From: Noviherbaspirillum cavernae
Lineage (GTDB): Bacteria > Pseudomonadota > Gammaproteobacteria > Burkholderiales > Burkholderiaceae_D
Reading direction: 5' to 3'
Assembly: GCF_003590875.1 (NCBI RefSeq)
Contig: NZ_QYUN01000003.1
Coordinates: 124,001 to 188,000, forward strand
DNA length: 64,000 bases
The translations under genes were made by a program, and so were the position numbers. How positions within the stretch are numbered: position 1 is the first letter of the stretch; each line of letters begins with the position of its first letter. The notes under the pieces are model-generated. The model was not told the DNA's origin and searched no databases. It saw only the letters and a list, made by a program, of their open reading frames with translations. Positions 26,552-61,411 of the stretch are shown piece by piece.

Positions 26552-27463
26552 ATGAATATTGCAGAAATCGACTTGAACTTGCTGCGCGTCTTCGATGCTC
26601 TGATGCGCACCAGGAACGTCACATTGGCCGGGGAAATTGTCGGCCTGAGCCAGCCTGCGGTGAGCTTTGGCTTGAACAAACTGCGCACGCTGACGGCGGA
26701 TCCCTTGTTCGTCCGAACCTCCAGGGGAATGGAACCGACACCCAGAGCGTCAAGGATGGCCGATCCGGTTCGGCATGTATTGGAAGTGGTGCAGCGAGAC
26801 ATCTTCCTGCAAGACGAATTCGATGCACGCACAAGCCAGCGCACATTTACGCTGAGTCTGTCAGACGTCGGCGAGATGGTCTTCCTGCCCAAGTTGCTCA
26901 GGCGTCTGCGTACGGATGCACCGGGCATCACCCTCAAGTCGGTGTCCATGCCACCGGCGCGTCTGGAAGAGGCGATGGCAGCGGGTGATGTGGACCTGGC
27001 GCTGGGCTATTTCCCGGACATCACAAAGGCCAATTTCTACCAGCAGCATCTGTTTACACATACGTTTGCCTGTCTGGTCCGCCGTGATCACCCCACCATC
27101 AAGACGAAGCTCACCATGAAGCAGTTCCTGGATGTCTATCATGTCGTGATACGGGCTGAAGGGCGAAGTCAGGAGATCATCGAGCGCTATCTGGAAGAGC
27201 AGAAAATTGTCCGCAAGGTCGGACTGAGCATTCCTCATTTCATGAGCATTCCGCACTTGCTGCCCGAGTCCGACATGCTGGTCACCGTTCCCTACTCATG
27301 CGCCCAGTCGTTCGCGAGACTTGGCGAGTTACGAATGCTGGAGTTGCCGATGAAGGCGCCCACATTCGATCTCAAGCAGCATTGGCATGCCCGTTATCAT
27401 CGAGACGCCGCCAACCAATGGCTACGCGGGATCATTTATGACTGCTTCTCCATGGGCATTTAG
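26552..27463 (+). CDS. LysR-family regulator (NodD/NahR-like)
   Basis: This 303-residue regulator starts MNIAEIDLNLLRVFDALMRT, followed by a helix-turn-helix in LAGEIVGLSQPAVSFGLNKL. The C-terminal effector domain follows. The N-terminus is closest in style to the NodD/NahR/PcpR group, which often responds to aromatics. It is divergent from the Rieske operon across a region with a T-N11-A box. Its TAG stop coincides with the first bases of a family A repeat, so the present C-terminus ends exactly at a repeat boundary. Confidence 0.88.
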   Translation: MNIAEIDLNLLRVFDALMRTRNVTLAGEIVGLSQPAVSFGLNKLRTLTADPLFVRTSRGMEPTPRASRMADPVRHVLEVVQRDIFLQDEFDARTSQRTFTLSLSDVGEMVFLPKLLRRLRTDAPGITLKSVSMPPARLEEAMAAGDVDLALGYFPDITKANFYQQHLFTHTFACLVRRDHPTIKTKLTMKQFLDVYHVVIRAEGRSQEIIERYLEEQKIVRKVGLSIPHFMSIPHLLPESDMLVTVPYSCAQSFARLGELRMLELPMKAPTFDLKQHWHARYHRDAANQWLRGIIYDCFSMGI

Positions 27464-27515
27464 AGCGTCTAACAAAATGAAGCGAAGCGGTTCTGAGTAG
27501 GCGCGCCGCCGCAGA
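27461..27515 (-). repeat. Family A palindromic repeat, half copy (A1)
   Basis: From AGAGCGTCTAACAAAATGA onward, about 53 bases are identical to the inverted right half of copy A2 (37098-37152). Copy A1 starts on the TAG of the LysR gene and stops where an IS3-type transposase remnant begins. Only one terminal inverted repeat is present, so the rest was lost or replaced. Confidence 0.8.
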
Positions 27516-27791
27516 CTGGCCGAATACGGCATGATGGCGAGCATCAGCCGCAAGGGCAATTGCTGGGAGTCAGAGCACTGCTCTGACGCGCCGATAGAAA
27601 GTTTCTTCAACAGCTTGAAGAACGAGCGCGTGTTTCATGAAGACTACGCCACGCGGGAAGAAGCCAGGCAGGATTTGTTTGACTATATCGAAGTGTTTTA
27701 CAACCGGACACGTCGCCACTCCGCGTTGCGCTACAAGAGCCCGGCGCAGCATCATGCTGCCTGGATGGCGGAACAAAAGCTGGTGGCGTGA
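27516..27791 (+). pseudogene. IS3-family transposase OrfB, C-terminal remnant
   Basis: The frame reads LAEYGMMASISRKGNCWESEHCSDAPIESFFNSLKNER and then YIEVFYNRTRRHSALRYKSP, the end of the rve DDE domain of IS3-family OrfB. The motif ending in the last catalytic glutamate (IESFFNSLKNE) is kept, but the N-terminal two thirds, OrfA and both IS ends are missing. It abuts repeat A1 directly. It is unlikely to make a functional transposase. Confidence 0.85.
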
Positions 27792-29726: not shown

Positions 29727-30359
29727 ATGATGAATCCAATGGAGTTGCCGCGCCAGTCGGTGGCACACGAGCCGGTGGCACACGAGCCGGTGGCACACGA
29801 GCCGGTGGCACACGAGCCGGTGGCGCACGAGCCGGTGGCGCACGAGCCGGTGGCGCACGAGCCGATGAAGCACGTCCTGATTGCCGCCGCCAAAACGGCG
29901 GCAATCGCGGGCGGTCTGCTGTTCATCGCATTGATTGTCATGTCGCTGATATCCATCATCGGGCGCAAGCTCGGCTTTGGCCCGGTCGAGGGCGATATCG
30001 AGTTGATGCAGGCGGGCACGGCCGTGGCGGCGATGGCTTTCCTGCCGTATTGCACGCTGCAGGGCGAGCATATCAAGGTGGATTTTTTCACCGAGAACAT
30101 GCGCGAATCGCTCAAGCGCCCGATCGACGGCGTCGCCGAGTGTCTGCTGGCGCTGGTCGTCGCCCTGCTGACGTGGCGCACCGCGCTGTCTGCGGTTGCC
30201 CTGCATGAGGCGGGCGAAGTCACCACGCTGGTGTCGCTGCCGGTATGGATTCCGGTCGCCGCGCTGGTGCCGATCCTTGCACTCACGACGCTGTGTGCGA
30301 TGTACCGCGCCGTCGCGTCGTTCCGTTCGTCGAAACCATTGTCAGGGAGAACAGCATGA
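29727..30359 (+). CDS. dctQ: TRAP transporter small permease (DctQ) with N-terminal VAHEP repeats
   Basis: This 210-residue four-helix membrane protein is the small TRAP subunit. Residues 12-46 are seven exact copies of VAHEP, encoded by 15-nt tandem repeats, before the first membrane helix (about 52-73). Family members normally start close to that helix, and a possible older start is M47 at 29865. The stop overlaps the DctM start as ATGA. Repeat number could vary by slippage without changing frame. Confidence 0.85.
   Translation: MMNPMELPRQSVAHEPVAHEPVAHEPVAHEPVAHEPVAHEPVAHEPMKHVLIAAAKTAAIAGGLLFIALIVMSLISIIGRKLGFGPVEGDIELMQAGTAVAAMAFLPYCTLQGEHIKVDFFTENMRESLKRPIDGVAECLLALVVALLTWRTALSAVALHEAGEVTTLVSLPVWIPVAALVPILALTTLCAMYRAVASFRSSKPLSGRTA
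29760..29864 (+). repeat. Seven-copy 15-nt coding tandem repeat in dctQ
   Basis: The unit GTGGCACACGAGCCG occurs seven times with no interruption. The first four copies have GCA and the last three GCG for alanine, so the array probably grew by at least two expansions. Each unit encodes VAHEP. It is in frame, giving a length-variable, histidine- and acid-rich N-terminal tail. Confidence 0.95.
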
Positions 30360-31684: not shown

Positions 31685-31740
31685 CATGCGCTGAAATACT
31701 CAGTAGTCGGAAATTTGGACAACGGCTGCATTGCTTCAAC

Positions 31741-31909
31741 TCCTTCCCCTTCAAGGGGATGAAGCAGGGGTTTCGCAAAGCATGCTTTGCGCCTGCTGAA
31801 TCGCATTGCCTTGCAAGGCAATGCGTGGGACGGCCGGGATGGGGATGGGTTTTACGTTGCGGATTTAACCCATCCCCACCCTAACCCTCCCCTTGAAGGG
31901 AAGGGGATG
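31741..31909. repeat. Inverted-repeat element D carrying the two-hairpin module
   Basis: Outer arms (CCTTCCCCTTCAAGGGG at the left and an inverted GA-rich counterpart at 31887-31908) enclose this element. Inside, 31764-31796 forms stem GCAGG/CCTGC with a 5-nt bulge and an 18-bp inner palindrome, and 31802-31825 is a 24-bp perfect palindrome. GGGGATGGGTT and AACCCATCCCC (about 31840-31877) add a further arm pair. The same module occurs inside repeats A3 and B1 with changed but still paired stems. No gene is supported between dctM and hpaG1. Confidence 0.65.
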
Positions 31910-31978: not shown

Positions 31979-32668
31979 ATGCAATCTGCAAGCACGCGCC
32001 AACCGCCCTGCCCCGCCATCAGCGGCACGGTCTATGGCGTCGTCCTCAACGACCGCGCCTCGCTCAACAGCATCGGCGCTGCGCTGGAGGATGCGCCATA
32101 CAAGGGCGCGCCGAAAGCGCCGGTCATGTACATCAAGCCGCGCAACACGCTGACCGGCTCCGGCGCGGTGGTGCAGCTGCCGGCAGGCGCCGATGCAGTC
32201 GAGATCGGCGCCACCGTCGGCATCCTGATCGGCCGGCCGGCGGCGCGCCTGCACGCGGCCGATGCAATGTCGGTCATCGCCGGCTTCGCGCTGGTGGCCG
32301 ACCTGAGCCTGCCGCATGCGAGTTACTACCGTCCCGCGATCCGGGAGAAGTGCTTCGACGCTTCCTGCCCCGTCGGGAATGTCGCCGCCGCCGATCTGGC
32401 CGGCGATCTGCGTGAACTGGTTTTGCAGACAACGATAGACGACCGGCTGGTCGCGCAGTGGCCGTTGGCCCATCTGGTGCGCGACGTGCCGCAACTGCTG
32501 GCCGACATCACCGAATTCATGTCCCTCGACACCGGCGACATGGTGCTGGTTGGCGTTCCCTATCTCGCGCCGCAGGCCGTTGCCGGCAGCCGCGTCCAGG
32601 TAGGCGCGAACCGGCCGGAACTGGGTACGCTGACATTCTCCATCGCAGCGGAAGGAGGCAAGGCATGA
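31979..32668 (+). CDS. hpaG1: 4-Hydroxyphenylacetate degradation isomerase/decarboxylase, HpaG1 half
   Basis: This 229-residue fumarylacetoacetate-hydrolase-fold protein corresponds to the N-terminal half of E. coli HpaG (HpcE). Together with HpaG2 it decarboxylates and isomerises 5-oxopent-3-ene-1,2,5-tricarboxylate to 2-hydroxyhepta-2,4-dienedioate. The ATG at 31979 has AGGGAGA at 31966-31972; an ATG 18 bases upstream is less likely. The stop overlaps the hpaG2 start (ATGA), so the halves are separate here but translationally coupled. Confidence 0.87.
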   Translation: MQSASTRQPPCPAISGTVYGVVLNDRASLNSIGAALEDAPYKGAPKAPVMYIKPRNTLTGSGAVVQLPAGADAVEIGATVGILIGRPAARLHAADAMSVIAGFALVADLSLPHASYYRPAIREKCFDASCPVGNVAAADLAGDLRELVLQTTIDDRLVAQWPLAHLVRDVPQLLADITEFMSLDTGDMVLVGVPYLAPQAVAGSRVQVGANRPELGTLTFSIAAEGGKA

Positions 32669-36236: not shown

Positions 36237-37040
36237 ATGCTGCCAACCAATGTGATTCAAGATCTGGCCCATCAATTGCATCGTGCCGAAAAGGCGCGCA
36301 CGCAGTTGCGCCACTTTTCCCAGGCGCATCCCGCCATGACCATCGAGGATGGCTACGCGATCCAGCGTGAATGGGTCAAGCTGAAGCTGGCAGAGGGACG
36401 CGTAATCAAGGGCCGCAAGATCGGCCTGACCTCGCGCGCGATGCAGATTTCCTCGCAGATCACCGAGCCGGATTACGCGCCCTTGCTGGACGATATGTTC
36501 TTCGAGTCTGGCACCGACATTCCGTTTTCGCGCTTCATCGCGCCGCGCATCGAAGTCGAACTGGCTTTCATCCTCGGCAAGCCGCTCAAGGGACCGGGCA
36601 TCACCTTGTTCAACGTACTGGCCGCGACCGAATATGTCACGCCGGCAATCGAGATCATCGATGCCCGCATCGAACAGTTCGACCGCGAAACGAAAGCGCC
36701 GCGCAAGGTATTCGACACCATCTCCGATTTTGCGGCCAATGCAGGCGTCGTGCTCGGTGGCCGCCCGGTTCGGCCGCATGACATCGATCTGCGCTGGATC
36801 AGTGCGATGCTCTATAAAAATGGCGTGATCGAGGAAACCGGCGTGGCCGCGGCGGTGCTGAATCACCCTGCCACCGGCGTGGCATGGCTGGCGAACAAGA
36901 TTGCGCCGCATGACGAGCAACTCAACGCCGGCGACGTGGTGCTGGCTGGCTCGTTCACGCGGCCAGTGCTGGCCGTGCCGGGCGACAATTTTCAGGCAGA
37001 TTATGGCCCGCTCGGGCAAATCGCCTTCCGCATCGTTTAG
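36237..37040 (+). CDS. hpaH: 2-Oxo-hept-3-ene-1,7-dioate hydratase
   Basis: This 267-residue hydratase of the MhpD/HpaH family adds water to 2-oxohept-3-enedioate using a divalent metal. It shows [12 protein letters not shown], the metal region [12 protein letters not shown], and [10 protein letters not shown] near the C-terminus. The ATG at 36237 is 35 bp after hpaF. The TAG stop is the first triplet of repeat A2, so the gene ends on a repeat boundary. Confidence 0.92.
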
Positions 37041-37155
37041 AGCACCTAACAAAATGATTCTGAGGGTGTTGCGCCGCCTTGCCGTACAAACTGTACTGTC
37101 TGCGGCGGCGCGCCTACTCAGAACCGCTTCGCTTCATTTTGTTAGACGCTCTTAA
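37038..37155. repeat. Family A palindromic repeat, full copy (A2)
   Basis: This element of about 115 bp has terminal inverted repeats AGAGC(AC/GT)CTAACAAAATGA at 37039-37057 and 37134-37152. The interior is also largely self-complementary (GCGCCGCC facing GGCGGCGC around GTACAAACTGTAC), so it can fold into one long hairpin. TTA flanks both sides. The left end supplies the hpaH stop codon; the right end is 12 bp before hpaI. It encodes no protein. Confidence 0.85.
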
Positions 37156-39525: not shown

Positions 39526-41016
39526 ATGCGACTCAAGCACATGAAATTGAGCGTTCGTCTGGGCCTGGCGTTCGGCTCGATGCTGCTGGCCCTGGCTGGC
39601 ATGACCGCTGTTGCTCTGAGCGTTGCACCCGATGCAGCGCGTGCTGCGGTGGCGTGCGCCGGCCTGGCTTGCCTCGTGGTGAGTCTTGTTTCGGCCCTGC
39701 TGGGCGTGCGCAGCGTCCTGCACCCTTTGCGGCAACTAAGAACCGATGCTGCCCGGCTGGCGGCCGGCGATCTGACGGCCGAACTCGGCTCCAGGCGTGT
39801 TGACGAGATCGGCGATGTGCAGAACGCATTGGTAGAGATCGGCAAACGGATGTTCAAGGTCATCGCCGGAGTCCGTTCCGGCACCGTGGCAGTGGCGACC
39901 ACCTCGGGCCAGATCAATGCCGACAGCGCCGCCCTCGCCTCTCACGCCGAGACGCAGGCCAGCTCGCTGGAAGAAACCGCCTCGTCGATGGAAGAGCTCA
40001 CCGCCACCGTCCGCCGGAATGCAGACCACGCAGAAACCGCTCGGCACATGGTCGATTCGGCCGCAGCCCATGCGCATCGCGGCGGCGAGGCTGTTGACCG
40101 GGTGATCGCCACGATCACTTCAATCAAGGATAGCTCGAAGAAAATCGCCGACATCATTGGCGTGATCGATGGCATCGCCTTCCAGACCAACATCCTTGCC
40201 TTGAATGCGGCGGTGGAAGCGGCACGGGCCGGCGAGCAGGGCCGCGGCTTCGCGGTGGTGGCAGCCGAAGTGCGCAGCCTGGCGCAGCGCTCCGCGCAGG
40301 CCGCCAGGGAAATCAAGGACTTGATCAAGGATTCCGTCGAGAAGGTCGATACCGGCGTCCGGCTGGTCGATGATGCCGGCAGCGCGATGGGCGACATCGC
40401 CACGTCCGTGCGGCATGTCGCCGCCATCGTGAAGGAAATCGCGGATGCGAGCCGGGAGCAGAGCAGCGGTATCGAGGAGGTCAACCACGCCGTCATCCAA
40501 CTCGACGGCATGACGCAGAAGAACGCAGCCTTGGGCGAAGATGCGTCGAGGGCCGCGGCCAGCTTGCATGAGCAGGCCATAGCATTGACGCAGGCGGTGG
40601 CATCGTTCGACCTCGGCGCACGCGAATTCGGCAATGCCGATGATGCGGTCGCAATGATCAAGGAAGCAGCCGCCTTTGTACGGCAGCACGGCGCACAGGC
40701 ACTGATCGATGAAGTCAATCGCTTCTCCAAGGGGCGGTTCATCGATCGCGATCTCTACTTGGTCGTCAACGATCTCAATGGCAACCGGCTTGCCCACGGC
40801 GCCAACGCGCGCCAGTACGGCGCCAGCAACATGGAACAGAAAGATGCCGGCGGCAAGTTCTTCGTCAAGGAGATGAATGCAGTCGGGCGAGGACCGGGCA
40901 GCGGTTGGGTCGAGTACAAATTCCCGCATCCGGTCACGAAGGAAATCATGCAAAAGGCCGCCTACGTGGAACGCGTCAATGACATTCTGCTCATTTGCGG
41001 CTGTTACAAGCGATAA
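39526..41016 (+). CDS. Chemoreceptor with C-terminal Cache-like domain
   Basis: This 496-residue protein has two membrane helices near 13-32 and 40-60 with almost no periplasmic loop, then a HAMP-like linker and a full signalling coiled coil ([20 protein letters not shown]). From about residue 373 an extra domain of about 120 residues follows (AVAMIKEAAAFVRQHGAQAL ... YLVVNDLNGNRLAHGANARQ ... YVERVNDILLICGCYKR) that resembles a single Cache sensor. Cache domains are usually periplasmic, so a cytoplasmic C-terminal location is unusual. The TAA stop is the start of repeat B2. Confidence 0.85.
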   Translation: MRLKHMKLSVRLGLAFGSMLLALAGMTAVALSVAPDAARAAVACAGLACLVVSLVSALLGVRSVLHPLRQLRTDAARLAAGDLTAELGSRRVDEIGDVQNALVEIGKRMFKVIAGVRSGTVAVATTSGQINADSAALASHAETQASSLEETASSMEELTATVRRNADHAETARHMVDSAAAHAHRGGEAVDRVIATITSIKDSSKKIADIIGVIDGIAFQTNILALNAAVEAARAGEQGRGFAVVAAEVRSLAQRSAQAAREIKDLIKDSVEKVDTGVRLVDDAGSAMGDIATSVRHVAAIVKEIADASREQSSGIEEVNHAVIQLDGMTQKNAALGEDASRAAASLHEQAIALTQAVASFDLGAREFGNADDAVAMIKEAAAFVRQHGAQALIDEVNRFSKGRFIDRDLYLVVNDLNGNRLAHGANARQYGASNMEQKDAGGKFFVKEMNAVGRGPGSGWVEYKFPHPVTKEIMQKAAYVERVNDILLICGCYKR

Positions 41017-41085
41017 GGCTACGCTGAACAAGTCCCACGATGGCGCGCGCCTGGGTTCGGGATGGGCTGCAAGGCGCAAGCCGCA
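41014..41085 (+). repeat. Family B palindromic repeat, single end (B2)
   Basis: Seventy-two bases match the left end of repeat B1 (60775 onward) with four substitutions, beginning TAAGGCTACGCTGAACAAGT. The element begins on the TAA of the chemoreceptor gene and breaks off after CCGCA. The right end is missing, so this is a solo or deleted copy. Confidence 0.8.
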
Positions 41086-45694: not shown

Positions 45695-45708
45695 TGCGAT
45701 CCCTTCGT

Positions 45709-45893
45709 GCGTCTAACAAAATGATTCTGAGGGTGTTGCGCCGCCTTGCCGTACAGTCGTACTGTCTGCGGCGGCACCCTTGCAGGGCGCGCACAGGCTT
45801 GCATGCCTGTGCCGTTACGCAGGCGGGCAGCAGGCTGCCCGAATTCCCTGCTCAACCCTACTCAGAACCGCTTCGCTTCATTTTGTTAGACGC
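45709..45893. repeat. Family A palindromic repeat with nested two-hairpin module (A3)
   Basis: Ends GCGTCTAACAAAATGA (45709-45724) and its inverse (45878-45893) match A2, as do the flanking parts on both sides. Between GGCGGC (45770-45775) and TACTCAG (45869) about 90 bases replace a 5-bp stretch of A2. This insert is, in inverse orientation, the two-hairpin module (45791-45851) also found in B1 and D. The element lies 20 bp beyond the ccoG stop and 15 bp before fixH. Confidence 0.85.
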
Positions 45894-45913
45894 CCTTATT
45901 CTGAAAAAAGCTC

Positions 45914-51077: not shown

Positions 51078-53666
51078 GTGTCTGATCCTTTCACGTGTTC
51101 GCACGCGATGCGTCGATGGATGGCCTCGGGGGCGACGTTTCTCCTGCAGCGTGCGTGCGCGGCGCAGACGCAAGGCATTCACGACGACGATGGCAGAACT
51201 GAGCGACATGCCGATGCCGGACAGCCATGGATTGAGCAGGCCGATTGCCGCAGCGGGAATCGCGACGGCGTTGTAGAGCATCGCCCACGCCAGATTCTGC
51301 CGGATCACGGACATCGTCCGCGATGCGATATCCGCCGCCTCCCACACCGACACCAGCCGCCCCGACAGCAAGACCGCGTCCGCGTGGGTCTGCGCCAGCG
51401 CCGCGCCGCTGCCCATGGCAAACGACACATCGGCGGCGCGCATGACGGCGGCATCGTTGATGCCGTCGCCCGTCATGGCAACCACCGCGCCGCCGGCCTG
51501 CAGGCGCTGCACGTATTCGACTTTCTGCTGCGGCAGACACTCGCCGTGTGCAATGCCGATGCCAAGCTCGCGCGCGATGTGCTGCGTGATGTCGTCCTGA
51601 TCGCCGCTCAACAGAACCACGGTCTTGCCGATGGATTGAAACTGCTGGACCACGCTTCTTGCATCGCTGCGCACCGCATCCACCAGGTCGAACCGCGCGA
51701 GCCATCCATCGGCGCAGCCCAGATACACCTGGGTCGTGCCGGCGACGGAACGCCCTCTCGCCGGCGAGCCCGCGAGCTCCCCGACAAAGCCGGCATTGCC
51801 GAGCCGATAGCGAATACCATCGACGATGCCTTCCAGCCCTTTCCCCGCCACGTAGCGCACTTCGCTTGCGTTCCGTCTTGCGGCCGGAGCTCCCTGTACC
51901 GCATTGATGATCGCCGCGGCGAATGGATGGTCGCTGTTCGTCTCCAGTGCCGCCGCAATCGACAGGTAATCGGCGGATTGCATGGTGCCGAAGCGTTCGA
52001 TGCTGCGCAGGACCGGTTTGCCGGCAGTCAGCGTGCCTGTCTTGTCGAACACGACATGCGTGGCGCGATGCAGGGTTTCCAGGACGTGCGGCTGCACCAC
52101 CAGCACGCCCTGCCCCGTCAGCCTGCCGGTTGCCGCCGCCAGTGCGGTCGGCGTCGCCAGCGACAACGCGCATGGACATGACACCACGAGCACGGCAATC
52201 GCGATCGGCCAGGCGCGCGCAGGATCGTGCCACTGCCACAGCACGAACACGCACGCGGCAAACAGCAGCAGTCCTGCGATGAACCATGCCGCGACCTTGT
52301 CCGCCCACAGCGACAAGCGGGGTTTCGCATGCCCTGCCTTGTCGATCAGTTTCAGCAGCATCGACAAGGTGCTTTCCCTCATCGGCTTGACGACGCGGGC
52401 GGCCACCGGCTGCGTCATGTTGACCGCCCCGCCCGGCAGAATCTCGCCCGACAGCTTGTGCACCGGCTGGCTTTCGCCGGTCAGCAGCGACACATCGATT
52501 GCCGTGCTCGGGTCGAGCAGCATGCAATCGGCGGCGATCGCCTCGCCCGGCTTGATCAGGATGACATCGCGCTCGCACAACTGTGCCGCCGGCACGCATT
52601 CGACCGCGCGGCTGGCCGGATAATCCGGCATGCGCGACGCCGATGCGGGCAGAGCATGTTGCAATTTTTCCAGCGCGGAAGCGGCCTTGCGCCGCGCGAT
52701 GGATTCCAGATAGCGGCTGCACAGCAGCAGGAAGATGAACATCGTCACCGTATCGAAATACACCTCGCCTTCCCCGCGCCATGTCGCCACTGTGCTGGCC
52801 GCGAACGCGGCGGCGATACCAAGCGCGACCGGCACATCCATCCCCAGTGCGTGGTTCTTCATGTCGGCCCATGCGCCGCGGAAGAACGGCAGCGCCGAGT
52901 AGAACACCGCCGGCACCGTCAGCAGCAGGCTGGCCCAGCGCATCAACCCCGCCATGTCGGCGTCCAGCGTGCCGTCGTCGGCGATGTAGGCCGGCACCGC
53001 ATACATCATCACCTGCATCATCGACAGCGCGGCGACAAACATCTGCCTGAACAGCGTTCTGCTTTCGCGGCGCAACTGCTCTTCGTGCCGTACCGCGTCG
53101 AACGGATAGACGGTGTAGCCGATCTCCCGCGCCGCCTTCAGGATGTCGCTCGGCTTGCACAGGTCGTTTCGCCAGCGCACATGGAGCCGCTCGGTCGCCA
53201 CGTTCAGATTGGCGCTCTGCAGACCGGCGACGCGCTTCAAGCGCCTTTCGATCAGCCATACGCATGCGGCGCAGCGGATGCCTTCGACGGAAAAGGTGGC
53301 TTCGCGCATCTCGTCCTGCTCGCCGGATCGCTCCGCGAACTGTCCGATCACTTCCGGCTGGTCATAGTGCGCCAGCTCCGGCGGCACCAGCGCCTCCTTG
53401 TCGGCAGACGCGGAGAATCCGCTGCGGGTCCGGTAGTAGTCGCCCAGGCCGCTGTCGACAATCGTGCGCGCCACCGCTTCGCAGCCGGGGCAGCACATGC
53501 GGCGCTCCGTGTCGCCGATGCTGACTGACCATGTTGCGCCGGCCGGCACCGGCAGGCCGCAATGAAAGCATGTCGTGTCCTGTGTCGTGTCCTGTGTCGT
53601 GTCCTGTGTCGTGTCCTGTGTCGTGTCCTGTGTCGTGTCCTGTATCGTGTCCTGTATCGCGTTCAT
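50925..53666 (-). CDS. ccoI: Copper-exporting P1B-type ATPase CcoI (FixI), open into ccoS
   Basis: This ATPase supplies copper for cbb3 assembly. It has an N-terminal CxxC region, a heavy-metal domain with GIRCAACVWLIE, eight membrane helices with the CPC motif in VVSCPCALSLATP, the phosphorylation motif DKTGTLTAGKP, and GDGINDAAVM. Residues 5-32 are seven QDT[TI] repeats. The frame has no stop before ccoS and predicts a 913-residue fusion, about 863 of which are CcoI. The ATG at 53666 overlaps the TauE-like stop (ATGA). The longer upstream open frame is antisense-like noise in another gene's territory and was not used. Confidence 0.88.
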   Translation of the reverse strand: MNAIQDTIQDTTQDTTQDTTQDTTQDTTQDTTCFHCGLPVPAGATWSVSIGDTERRMCCPGCEAVARTIVDSGLGDYYRTRSGFSASADKEALVPPELAHYDQPEVIGQFAERSGEQDEMREATFSVEGIRCAACVWLIERRLKRVAGLQSANLNVATERLHVRWRNDLCKPSDILKAAREIGYTVYPFDAVRHEEQLRRESRTLFRQMFVAALSMMQVMMYAVPAYIADDGTLDADMAGLMRWASLLLTVPAVFYSALPFFRGAWADMKNHALGMDVPVALGIAAAFAASTVATWRGEGEVYFDTVTMFIFLLLCSRYLESIARRKAASALEKLQHALPASASRMPDYPASRAVECVPAAQLCERDVILIKPGEAIAADCMLLDPSTAIDVSLLTGESQPVHKLSGEILPGGAVNMTQPVAARVVKPMRESTLSMLLKLIDKAGHAKPRLSLWADKVAAWFIAGLLLFAACVFVLWQWHDPARAWPIAIAVLVVSCPCALSLATPTALAAATGRLTGQGVLVVQPHVLETLHRATHVVFDKTGTLTAGKPVLRSIERFGTMQSADYLSIAAALETNSDHPFAAAIINAVQGAPAARRNASEVRYVAGKGLEGIVDGIRYRLGNAGFVGELAGSPARGRSVAGTTQVYLGCADGWLARFDLVDAVRSDARSVVQQFQSIGKTVVLLSGDQDDITQHIARELGIGIAHGECLPQQKVEYVQRLQAGGAVVAMTGDGINDAAVMRAADVSFAMGSGAALAQTHADAVLLSGRLVSVWEAADIASRTMSVIRQNLAWAMLYNAVAIPAAAIGLLNPWLSGIGMSLSSAIVVVNALRLRRARTLQEKRRPRGHPSTHRVRTRERIRHMESLYILVPLSVLIVFVAIWVFFRMSDSGQFDDMTGPALRILQDDDRPEG
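53571..53654 (-). repeat. Seven-copy 12-nt coding tandem repeat in ccoI
   Basis: The minus-strand unit CAGGACACGACA, encoding QDTT, occurs six times after one variant CAGGACACGATA (QDTI). The array lies between the initiation region and the first CxxC of CcoI. It is in frame, so changes in copy number alter length only. The units are nearly identical, which points to recent expansion. Confidence 0.93.
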
Positions 53667-54451
53667 TGTTCTGTCCGATCCGATGCATGGGAACTCAAGG
53701 GGCTGACGCAGACCTCTTCGAGCCAGTCCGCCGTGAAGCCGCTGCCTGCCCTTGCCAACCCCGCGATGCCGAACGCCAGGATCACCAGGCCGCTCGCCAC
53801 CCGCACCCGGCGTCGGCGCAGCCAGCCCTGCAGGCGCATGCCGAGCATGCCCATGCTCGCCACCATCGGCAGCGTTCCCAAACCGAACGCGGCCATCACC
53901 AACGCACCATCCAATGCCGATCCGCTCAGCATCGCCGTCAGCAGCACGCTGTACACCATGCCGCACGGCAGCCAGCCCCACAATGCGCCGAGGGCCAGCG
54001 CCTTGCGCGAATTGTCCATCGGCAGCAAACGCGCGGTGAGCGGCTGCACGCGACGCCAGACGAATCTGCCCGCGGCTTCCAGCCGCGTCAGCCCGTGCCA
54101 TGCATCCATCAGATACAGGCCGAGTGCAATCAGCATCAGGTTGGCAAGCCAGTACGTGCCAAGCTGCAGCGAGGGCATCACGGACAGTCCGCGCACGCCT
54201 TGCGCAATACCGCCCGCCACTGCGCCCGCCATTGCGTAACTGCCGATCCTGCCGGCGTTGTAGGCAATGACATGCATGACATCGGCGTGCACGGCCGTCG
54301 GTGCGGCAATCCCGGACCCGCCGGCCAGCGCGACCGGAAAAACCTTGCGCGTGCCGGGCGCGATCGACAGCGCACTCACGATGCCGCCGCACATGCCGAT
54401 GCAATGCACGCTGCCCAGCAGGCCGATCATGAATACGGGCACAAGGTTCAC
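53663..54451 (-). CDS. Sulfite exporter TauE/SafE-type membrane protein (COG2836-like)
   Basis: This 262-residue protein has about six membrane helices. It begins with FMIGLLGSVHCIGMCGGIVS, and the conserved cysteine pair in HCIGMCGG resembles the DsbD/CcdA-like copper-associated group. It is found between hemN and ccoI in many cbb3 clusters and probably assists copper handling or thiol transfer. Its stop overlaps the ccoI start and it begins 19 bp after hemN. Confidence 0.85.
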   Translation of the reverse strand: MNLVPVFMIGLLGSVHCIGMCGGIVSALSIAPGTRKVFPVALAGGSGIAAPTAVHADVMHVIAYNAGRIGSYAMAGAVAGGIAQGVRGLSVMPSLQLGTYWLANLMLIALGLYLMDAWHGLTRLEAAGRFVWRRVQPLTARLLPMDNSRKALALGALWGWLPCGMVYSVLLTAMLSGSALDGALVMAAFGLGTLPMVASMGMLGMRLQGWLRRRRVRVASGLVILAFGIAGLARAGSGFTADWLEEVCVSPLSSHASDRTEQ

Positions 54452-60564: not shown

Positions 60565-60777
60565 ATGAAAACAACTGCTCTTGAATCAATCGTGACCTGT
60601 CCGCAATGCGGTTTTGCAAAGCAGGAAATCATGCCGACGAATGCCTGTCAGTTCTATTACGAATGCGAAAATTGCCACGCAGTTTTACGCCCAACGCCTG
60701 GTGACTGCTGTGTCTATTGTTCCTACGGGTCGGTGAAGTGTCCGTCAGTACAGGAACAACGCAGATGCCGTGATTAA
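60565..60777 (+). CDS. Small zinc-ribbon protein with GDCCxYCSYG motif
   Basis: This 70-residue protein has four cysteine pairs: CPQC, CENC, GDCCVYC and KCPS. The string TPGDCCVYCSYGSVKCP is a motif I recognise from small conserved proteins of unknown function, often near metal or stress genes. A start 57 bases upstream (60508) has AGGAG four bases before it and would add 19 basic residues; the shorter form fits the motif spacing better. The TAA stop is the first triplet of repeat B1. Confidence 0.65.
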   Translation: MKTTALESIVTCPQCGFAKQEIMPTNACQFYYECENCHAVLRPTPGDCCVYCSYGSVKCPSVQEQRRCRD

Positions 60778-61024
60778 GGCTGCGCTGAACAAGTCCCGCG
60801 ATGGCGCGCGCCTGAGTTCGGGATGGGCTGCAAGGCGCAAACCGCAGACATGGCGGGGCCATGGCGAGGGTGAAGCAGGGAATTCGGACAGCATGCTGTC
60901 CGCCTGCGTAACGGCACAGGCTTGCAAGCCTGTGCGCGCCCTGCAGGGGTTGCAACGCCGCGGACCGCCCGAACTCAGGATGCACAATGCACCGAAGCGT
61001 GAGGACTTGTTCAGCGTAGCCTTA
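60775..61024. repeat. Family B palindromic repeat with nested two-hairpin module (B1)
   Basis: This 250-bp element has ends TAAGGCTGCGCTGAACAAGT and GGACTTGTTCAGCGTAGCCT plus TA. Inner arms GCGCCTGAGTTCGGG and CCCGAACTCAGG also pair, so the whole can fold as a branched hairpin. The two-hairpin module lies at 60875-60935. The element starts on the TAA of the zinc-ribbon gene. It has no protein-coding potential that I trust. Confidence 0.85.
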
Positions 61025-61411
61025 AGTCGGCCTCCGGAAGTTCTGCCGTAACAGCAACGCAGCGGTTACAAATCGTCCGTTCTACCCGCAGATAAGCATC
61101 TTTACGCGCGCGCCGAGATATCATTGACCGTTGCCGAACGTGCGCGCTTCTTGATCACATTCCCGGCATAGCCGACGGCAACGGCGCCAGCCACCGTTGC
61201 CGAACGTGCGGCCATTGCCCTCGCCCATTCACTGTGAGCTTTCATCTCGGCAATGAAATTGCTAATACAAAGCATGCACCAGCACAAAGTCAAACAGGCT
61301 CCGCTGACTTATGCTTCTTGAATGTGCGAGCGCACTCTTGTGCGGCCGCACATTCAAGGACTGATCCTTCCCACGACGACATGTGAAGTTCAAGAAATAA
61401 CGGCGCTGACA
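61025..61411. other. Intergenic region before the GGDEF-EAL gene
   Basis: An 18-bp direct repeat ACCGTTGCCGAACGTGCG occurs at 61130 and 61194. A minus-strand open frame of 63 codons spans it but lacks a ribosome site and family resemblance, so I do not call it. A hairpin around CTTGAATGTGCG and GCCGCACATTCAAG (61315-61356) is visible. Promoter elements for the next gene were not obvious. Confidence 0.3.

Follow-up and report, generated by a model that had tools for sequence, protein, structure and literature searches.

The Beta-proteobacterial repeat element (BRE) is a mostly intergenic repeat of 75-91 bp with a GC content of 64-79% (mean 69%), known from Alcaligenaceae, Comamonadaceae and Rhodocyclaceae at a copy number of 1 to 29, with Bordetella, Polaromonas, Delftia and Azoarcus among its carriers (Hot et al. 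2011, PMC3110155, in its available part). Copies sometimes lie in tandem with no or few bases between them, the parent RNA candidate was found by a structure-conservation scan (RNAz), and BRE orientation is not tied to the replication fork according to the authors (same part of PMC3110155). Here we analysed a 64,000-nt stretch of a Noviherbaspirillum genome, referred to as the window, which holds three copies of a short module built from hairpins. The module is like BRE in unit size, GC, tandem habit and broad range, as far as the available part of the BRE report goes; its size was taken from the net gain of ~78 bp per module and from 69-nt units in Noviherbaspirillum humi, and the match lengths of our covariance model R1 were left out of this comparison because the model shapes them. 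Compared by description only, BRE and the module family are probably one family. For BRE, the available part of PMC3110155 mentions neither a fold or bulge nor covariation, nesting in hosts or a rule of insertion. The initial annotation had named no known element for the module, and this is doubtful, as BRE fits by description in size, tandem habit and taxonomic range; the two-hairpin layout itself we recognised in no paper in a literature search. The structure, the nesting and the insertion rule appear to be new. A link to BRE through lexA neighbours was not found: of the ORFs listed for family f20, 20 were compared and none matched LexA at E ≤ 1e-20 (NCBIfam) or 1e-15 (Pfam).

REP, BIME and REPIN repeats share with the module that they are short extragenic hairpins in high copy number. 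In E. coli, REP activity depends on a bulge, and the REP families described in the available parts of PMC3733652, PMC2817692 and PMC8266576 (the last also the source for the bulge) do not match the module. In contrast to the REP/RAYT system, the module combines two or three different hairpins in fixed order over ~69-80 nt, where a REP is a single hairpin of 20-40 nt; it has no constant GTAG tetranucleotide (columns 3-6 of the layout given below read G-N-M-G, with column 4 free), and its repeats flank none of the 33 Y1/RAYT loci examined. It resembles a MITE in being short, non-coding, mobile and of high copy number, but shows neither terminal inverted repeats nor a target duplication; it is one of its hosts, host A, that is MITE-like. 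The ends of IS200/IS605 elements and their palindrome-associated derivatives form strand-specific hairpins with unpaired bases and cause no target duplication. The module is similar in its strand-specific hairpins, its unpaired bases and the lack of a target duplication, but differs in that host bases are replaced and that no TnpA is linked to it. The positions of the modules and their hosts in the window are collected in Table 1.

Table 1 Modules, host repeats and other repeats in the window
Feature	Position in window	Strand	Details
Module in host B1	60870..60949	+	Full 80 nt; 103.6 bits with the covariance model (training copy), best copy in the genome
B1 module, hairpin 1	60870..60912	+	
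B1 module, hairpin 2	60914..60935	+	
B1 module, hairpin 3	60939..60949	+	
Module in host A3	45777..45856	-	Full 80 nt; left site of host A; 101.8 bits (training copy)
Module in host D	31759..31825	+	Hairpins 1 and 2; hairpin 3 absent from the tail; 64.5 bits (not a training copy); model match reaches 31835
Host A3	45707..45895		MITE-like, 189 bp, one module; terminal inverted repeats, degenerate at the low end; ends set by eye
Host A2	37040..37151		Module-free empty site, 112 bp; TTA on both flanks
Third A element, part	27459..27516		No module in this stretch
Host B1	60774..61025		23-bp terminal inverted repeats
B2, one end of a B element	41014..41085	+	Without module
Host D	31740..31906		Palindromic repeat of the CCCCTTCAAGGGG ... 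CCCATCCCC type, flanks the module; limits set by eye
Short tandem repeats	29731..29895 and 53559..53690		15-nt and 12-nt period

Fold and covariation of the module

The unit spans ~80 nt and consists of hairpin 1 (outer stem, bulge and inner stem), hairpin 2 and often a small hairpin 3. Columns 1-5 (GYGNM) form a foot that pairs in part with columns 39-43 (GNAAC or GNAGC). This is followed by the outer stem, in which columns 6-10 pair with 34-38 (GCAGG/CCTGC), by the unpaired G-R-W-T-T bulge of columns 11-15, and by the inner hairpin of columns 16-33, the apex of which is usually GCATGC. Hairpin 2 occupies columns 45-66, usually around TTGCAAG, and hairpin 3 columns 70-80, CNCTGCAAGN'G; the latter is swapped for other tails in many copies, including the D copy of the window. 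The GC content of 80-nt copies is mostly 0.61-0.70. The bulge read G-R-W-T-T in 22 of 22 listed copies of one set by eye and is near-constant overall (exceptions are L077, L081 and L086). The retrieval pattern for copies from named genomes already specified the bulge, the outer stem and the apex; constancy of these parts is therefore no evidence there, whereas the free stem positions are. Integron attC sites carry the outer boxes RYYYAAC / GTTRRRY; we rejected an attC identity, as the consensus of the module foot is GTGNAGC/GCGNAAC, with G at column 3 in at least 90% of copies.

The initial annotation had placed three modules at 31764-31825 (+, 62 nt), 45791-45851 (-, 61 nt) and 60875-60935 (+, 61 nt). 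The letters at these positions agree with it, as do the GCAGG/CCTGC outer stems, the bulges GGTTT, GAATT and GAATT, and the matched stem changes in all three; likewise, the second hairpins of D and B1 differ at three positions, each compensated when read by eye. Two details required correction. The inner "18-bp palindrome" measures 18 nt, equivalent to 9 bp, and in A3 its central part lacks palindromic symmetry. What had been called a 5-nt linker is in part the 3' side of a longer hairpin-1 foot, in which columns 1/43 pair in 59 of 59 copies and columns 2/42 in 58. Moreover, the A3 and B1 modules start 5 nt earlier and run 14 nt further, into the third small hairpin, which gives the 80-nt unit. 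Folded as single-stranded DNA, the three modules of the window have predicted z-scores of -3.15 to -4.13. In conclusion, the earlier observation is real, and the family is larger than was described.

We assessed covariation in three alignments, all of them chosen in ways that favour regular copies. Among 26 copies of the own genome (24 distinct), 97.8% of cells pair and double changes occur at 15 of 25 pairs; we counted 90 double-change cells, compared to 26.1 ± 4.3 after shuffling (0/500) and 5-12 in slid controls. This alignment holds 26 of 32 rows, its copies having been found with a pattern that fixes the outer stem; L003, the second L007 copy, L014, L028, the plus-strand copy of L032 and the D copy of the window were left out as indel variants, truncated, spurious or different in the tail. 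A second alignment comprises 59 copies of the 80-nt layout from many genera, for which 113 named copies contributed 38 of 43 type-I, 6 of 64 unclassed and 0 of 6 type-II copies. Here 91.4% of cells pair, double changes affect 22 of 30 pairs, and 316 double-change cells stand against 96.2 ± 8.9 in shuffled and 16-39 in slid controls. Within the foot, columns 2/42 covary in this set, whereas pairing is lost at columns 3/41 in 52, at 4/40 in 26 and at 5/39 in 44 of the 59 copies. The third alignment covers hairpin 1 in 32 copies from many families (19 of 22 listed, L440, L452 and L456 being left out, plus 13 others), mostly found via R1 instead of a fixed pattern. It contains 121 double-change cells, compared to 36.9 ± 4.3 shuffled and 10-25 slid, and its outer stem varies as well, with 10 and 20 double changes at columns 7/38 and 8/37. 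The shuffles ignore relatedness, so their results are counts and not probabilities, and the slid controls keep relatedness, yet favour a structure that was read from the same sequences. Covariation is strong against both kinds of control, and the three alignments support the conserved structure with compensating changes and conserved bulge that had been proposed from three copies. In the 59-copy alignment, types of hairpin-2 stem (e.g. TCTGCG) recur across genera together with differing types of hairpin 1, as if stems had been swapped in blocks.

Copy number and taxonomic range

The modules are not a chance finding: a 29-37-nt pattern gave 42 matches in the own genome, 31 of which were real by eye, and 0 matches when reversed. 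Of the real copies, 26 share one rigid 80-nt layout, and from these, the A3 and B1 copies of the window included and the D copy not, we built R1, which its training copies match by construction, unlike the remaining own copies and those of the relatives. The model found 51 matches in the own genome at E ≤ 1 and 44 at E ≤ 0.001, beyond the three copies first noticed. With the own genome included, the module was detected in 31 of 60 relatives (E ≤ 0.001), 72 of 116 family genomes (E ≤ 1e-5) and 47 of 399 genomes of the order (E ≤ 0.001), 36 of the last in 14 other families, and it was thus seen in 15 families of Burkholderiales. It gave no match in 183 other genomes of a class sample (E ≤ 1e-5). 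Searches of more than 40 genomes used stricter filters, with 11 to 78 candidates scored per genome, so that these counts are lower bounds. The genera among the matches listed (80 rows, from 119 stretches) include Noviherbaspirillum, Herminiimonas, Herbaspirillum, Collimonas, Pseudoduganella, Undibacterium, Massilia, Pseudothauera and Methylophilus, and copy number varies widely between genomes of one genus. Viral contigs gave 0 matches to the exact pattern and phages 0 matches by similarity to the B1 copy; the only plasmid matches came from the Cupriavidus metallidurans megaplasmid (2 records). Copies can also adjoin one another: a tandem array in N. humi (L111, C25:118000-119100, 577-931) of units set head to tail includes four adjoining ones of 69 nt, and in L466 module copies lie 1 and 27 nt apart.

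Host repeats and insertion junctions

Host A has inverted ends. We measured 20 A elements, a set that does not include A3, and took their module content from the loci themselves. Ten elements are 111-112 bp long and hold no module, eight of 189-190 bp hold one and two of 267-268 bp hold two, so that each module adds ~78 bp net. Flanks of TTA/TAA that are the same on both sides, read as target duplications, border 10 of the 20 elements, and the module occupies three distinct internal sites of host A. The other hosts are of different kinds. With 40 of 76 candidates scored, B1 was the sole full-length match in the genome at E ≤ 1e-5, and ~12 further D-hosted copies are spread across the genome, as judged by eye. 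The entry of the module into unrelated hosts, which the initial annotation had regarded as independent, is supported by the empty and occupied A elements and by a shared junction rule, and we conclude that the module moves independently of its hosts.

To define the junctions, we compared 82 distinct type-I flank pairs with possible empty sites over 3.1 Mb of DNA. A candidate empty site was found for 58 pairs, the top candidate having CG in 17 and TG in 8; for the other 24 no empty site was found in the 3.1 Mb, and weak matches were mixed. Of the 13 empty matches with at most 2 mismatches, 8 are in host A, so these are not 13 independent events; 11 lost CG and 2 lost three bases (TTG and TTA, both in D-like hosts), and replacement of TG comes from weaker empty-site matches only. 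After similar hosts had been merged, the base before the module was G in 28 of 29 cases and GG in 22 of 29. A module is preceded by G, in most cases as part of GG, and as a rule CG or TG of the host is lost to it. A preference for the tips of host hairpins was rejected, with 6.03 pairs observed and 6.05 after shuffling. For host D the empty site, itself a weak match, has T; the occupied junction there carries G if column 71 holds C, and T if it holds A. Two other copies combine a C junction with G. Four copies, L159, L177, L189 (minus strand) and L255 (plus strand), keep C opposite C.

A few further observations concern the hosts themselves. Of the 30 modules listed for another genome (G143; L387, L407-L435), 29 sit in an A-like composite whose ends differ from those of A but whose inner GACAGTACG part is similar. 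Near C2:1.115 Mb of the own genome, hairpins 1 and 2 lie 1.2 kb apart, the sole such case; we considered an autonomous element and rejected it by eye in favour of an IS within hairpin 2, as a ~1.2-kb IS-like insertion (C2:1.115-1.116 Mb; L061, L109) appears to split hairpin 2 in a double-module A element. The ends of A elements, including the one at window 37040-37151, contain ...CTAAC ... GTTAGAC. These resemble the R boxes of integron attC sites, which we take to be probably a coincidence with the inverted repeat of A.

Explanations for the family and its genomic context

Our preferred reading, at slightly better than even odds, is a fold-defined mobile DNA element, short and non-autonomous, that a putative enzyme recognises through its shape and that MITEs then carry further. 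This reading is based on stems that change in pairs, a bulge that stays and several sites in unrelated repeats. A candidate trans-acting enzyme would recognise the folded single strand, probably via the hairpin-1 bulge and apex, and would join it to G|YG targets, of which extragenic repeats contain many; hitch-hiking in other mobile repeats, above all host A, would then account for a large share of the copies. A more specific version seems doubtful to us: that these are order-wide fold-defined DNA elements with their own undescribed single-strand recombinase. Its address would be the two hairpins with their five-base bulge, and it would insert after GG and rewrite the two host bases that follow, using the small hairpin 3. 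The four copies with C opposite C slightly lower our confidence in such rewriting. The family is widespread and has a precise address, its insertion rule can be measured, and a single genome offers natural pairs of empty and occupied sites. This makes it directly testable what moves small palindromic repeats without a linked RAYT, and, if the module is BRE, an orphan repeat of 2011 gains a structure and a mechanism to test.

Selection on RNA could also explain paired changes, if the module were a structured element acting in transcripts through processing, stability or as a small RNA. The strong covariation, which includes some G-U pairs, fits this, and if the module is BRE, transcripts of 80 nt and ~200 nt overlap one Bordetella copy (PMC3110155, available part). 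However, copies sit inside other repeats and vary in number within one genus, no Rfam family matched in the window above its gathering score, the only other hit being a chance match around B1 (E 0.18), and direction relative to neighbouring genes is balanced. In the own genome, 38 of 44 copies are outside genes predicted by a codon-usage script, and the neighbouring genes of these 38 run ++ in 13, -- in 11, +- (convergent) in 11 and -+ in 2 cases, with one ambiguous; module direction is thus not tied to transcription. We regard the RNA explanation as unlikely. It is quite unlikely, in our estimation, that MITE A and its relatives simply contain the module as a passive domain, which would reach other sites by recombination between repeats and keep its palindromes by template-switch correction. 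Many copies are indeed in A-like hosts (20 of 44 in the own genome, by eye, and 29 of 30 listed in G143), and mutational palindrome correction can produce paired changes. Such correction should erase the bulge and the foot mismatches, yet both persist, and the module has entered A at three sites with a gain of ~78 bp each, while its junction in other hosts is the same as in A. Mobilisation of a REP/REPIN-type repeat by a RAYT (TnpA_REP, a Y1 transposase) would account for a bulged, intergenic, high-copy hairpin, and the own genome encodes 4 Y1 transposases. The search for Y1 covered the own genome, 13 genomes with modules and 116 genomes of the family. Of the family genomes with Y1, 67 of 103 contain modules, a somewhat higher share than among those without (5 of 13). 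Against this, none of 33 Y1/RAYT loci of ~3 kb each contains a module (best E 0.14), five module genomes (G002, G022, G029, G086 and G149) have no detectable Y1, and the GTAG tag is inconstant, which makes a RAYT very unlikely as the mover.

The initial annotation had suggested looking for a linked transposase or RAYT-like gene, and neither was found: in addition to the negative result at the 33 Y1 loci, no transposase or reverse transcriptase was recognisable by eye among the 30 ORF clusters listed from 119 named loci. The mover that we propose is thus an inferred one. Two of the own Y1 genes adjoin repeats of other types by eye (L036, 1394-1413 and 1984-2003; L037, ~1950-2100), which are likely those genes' own REPs.

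Finally, we compared module strand with replication, with replichores set from GC skew. In the own genome, 32 modules are on the lagging and 12 on the leading strand (p = 0.004); in G143 a hand tally gave 35 vs 21 of 56 (p = 0.08), and both genomes pooled gave p = 0.0009. With A pairs counted once and the D copy near the skew switch left out, the own count was 28 vs 11 (p = 0.009). Outside A, 16 own copies are lagging vs 7 (p = 0.09), and empty A elements lean to the lagging strand likewise (10 vs 6, hand count). We treat the lagging-strand bias as unproven, since copies inside A share the orientation of A and the signal outside A is weak. The GC skew of C3 switches sign near window position 32000 (C3 ~156000), close to the D module, and this switch may mark a replication terminus of the replicon.
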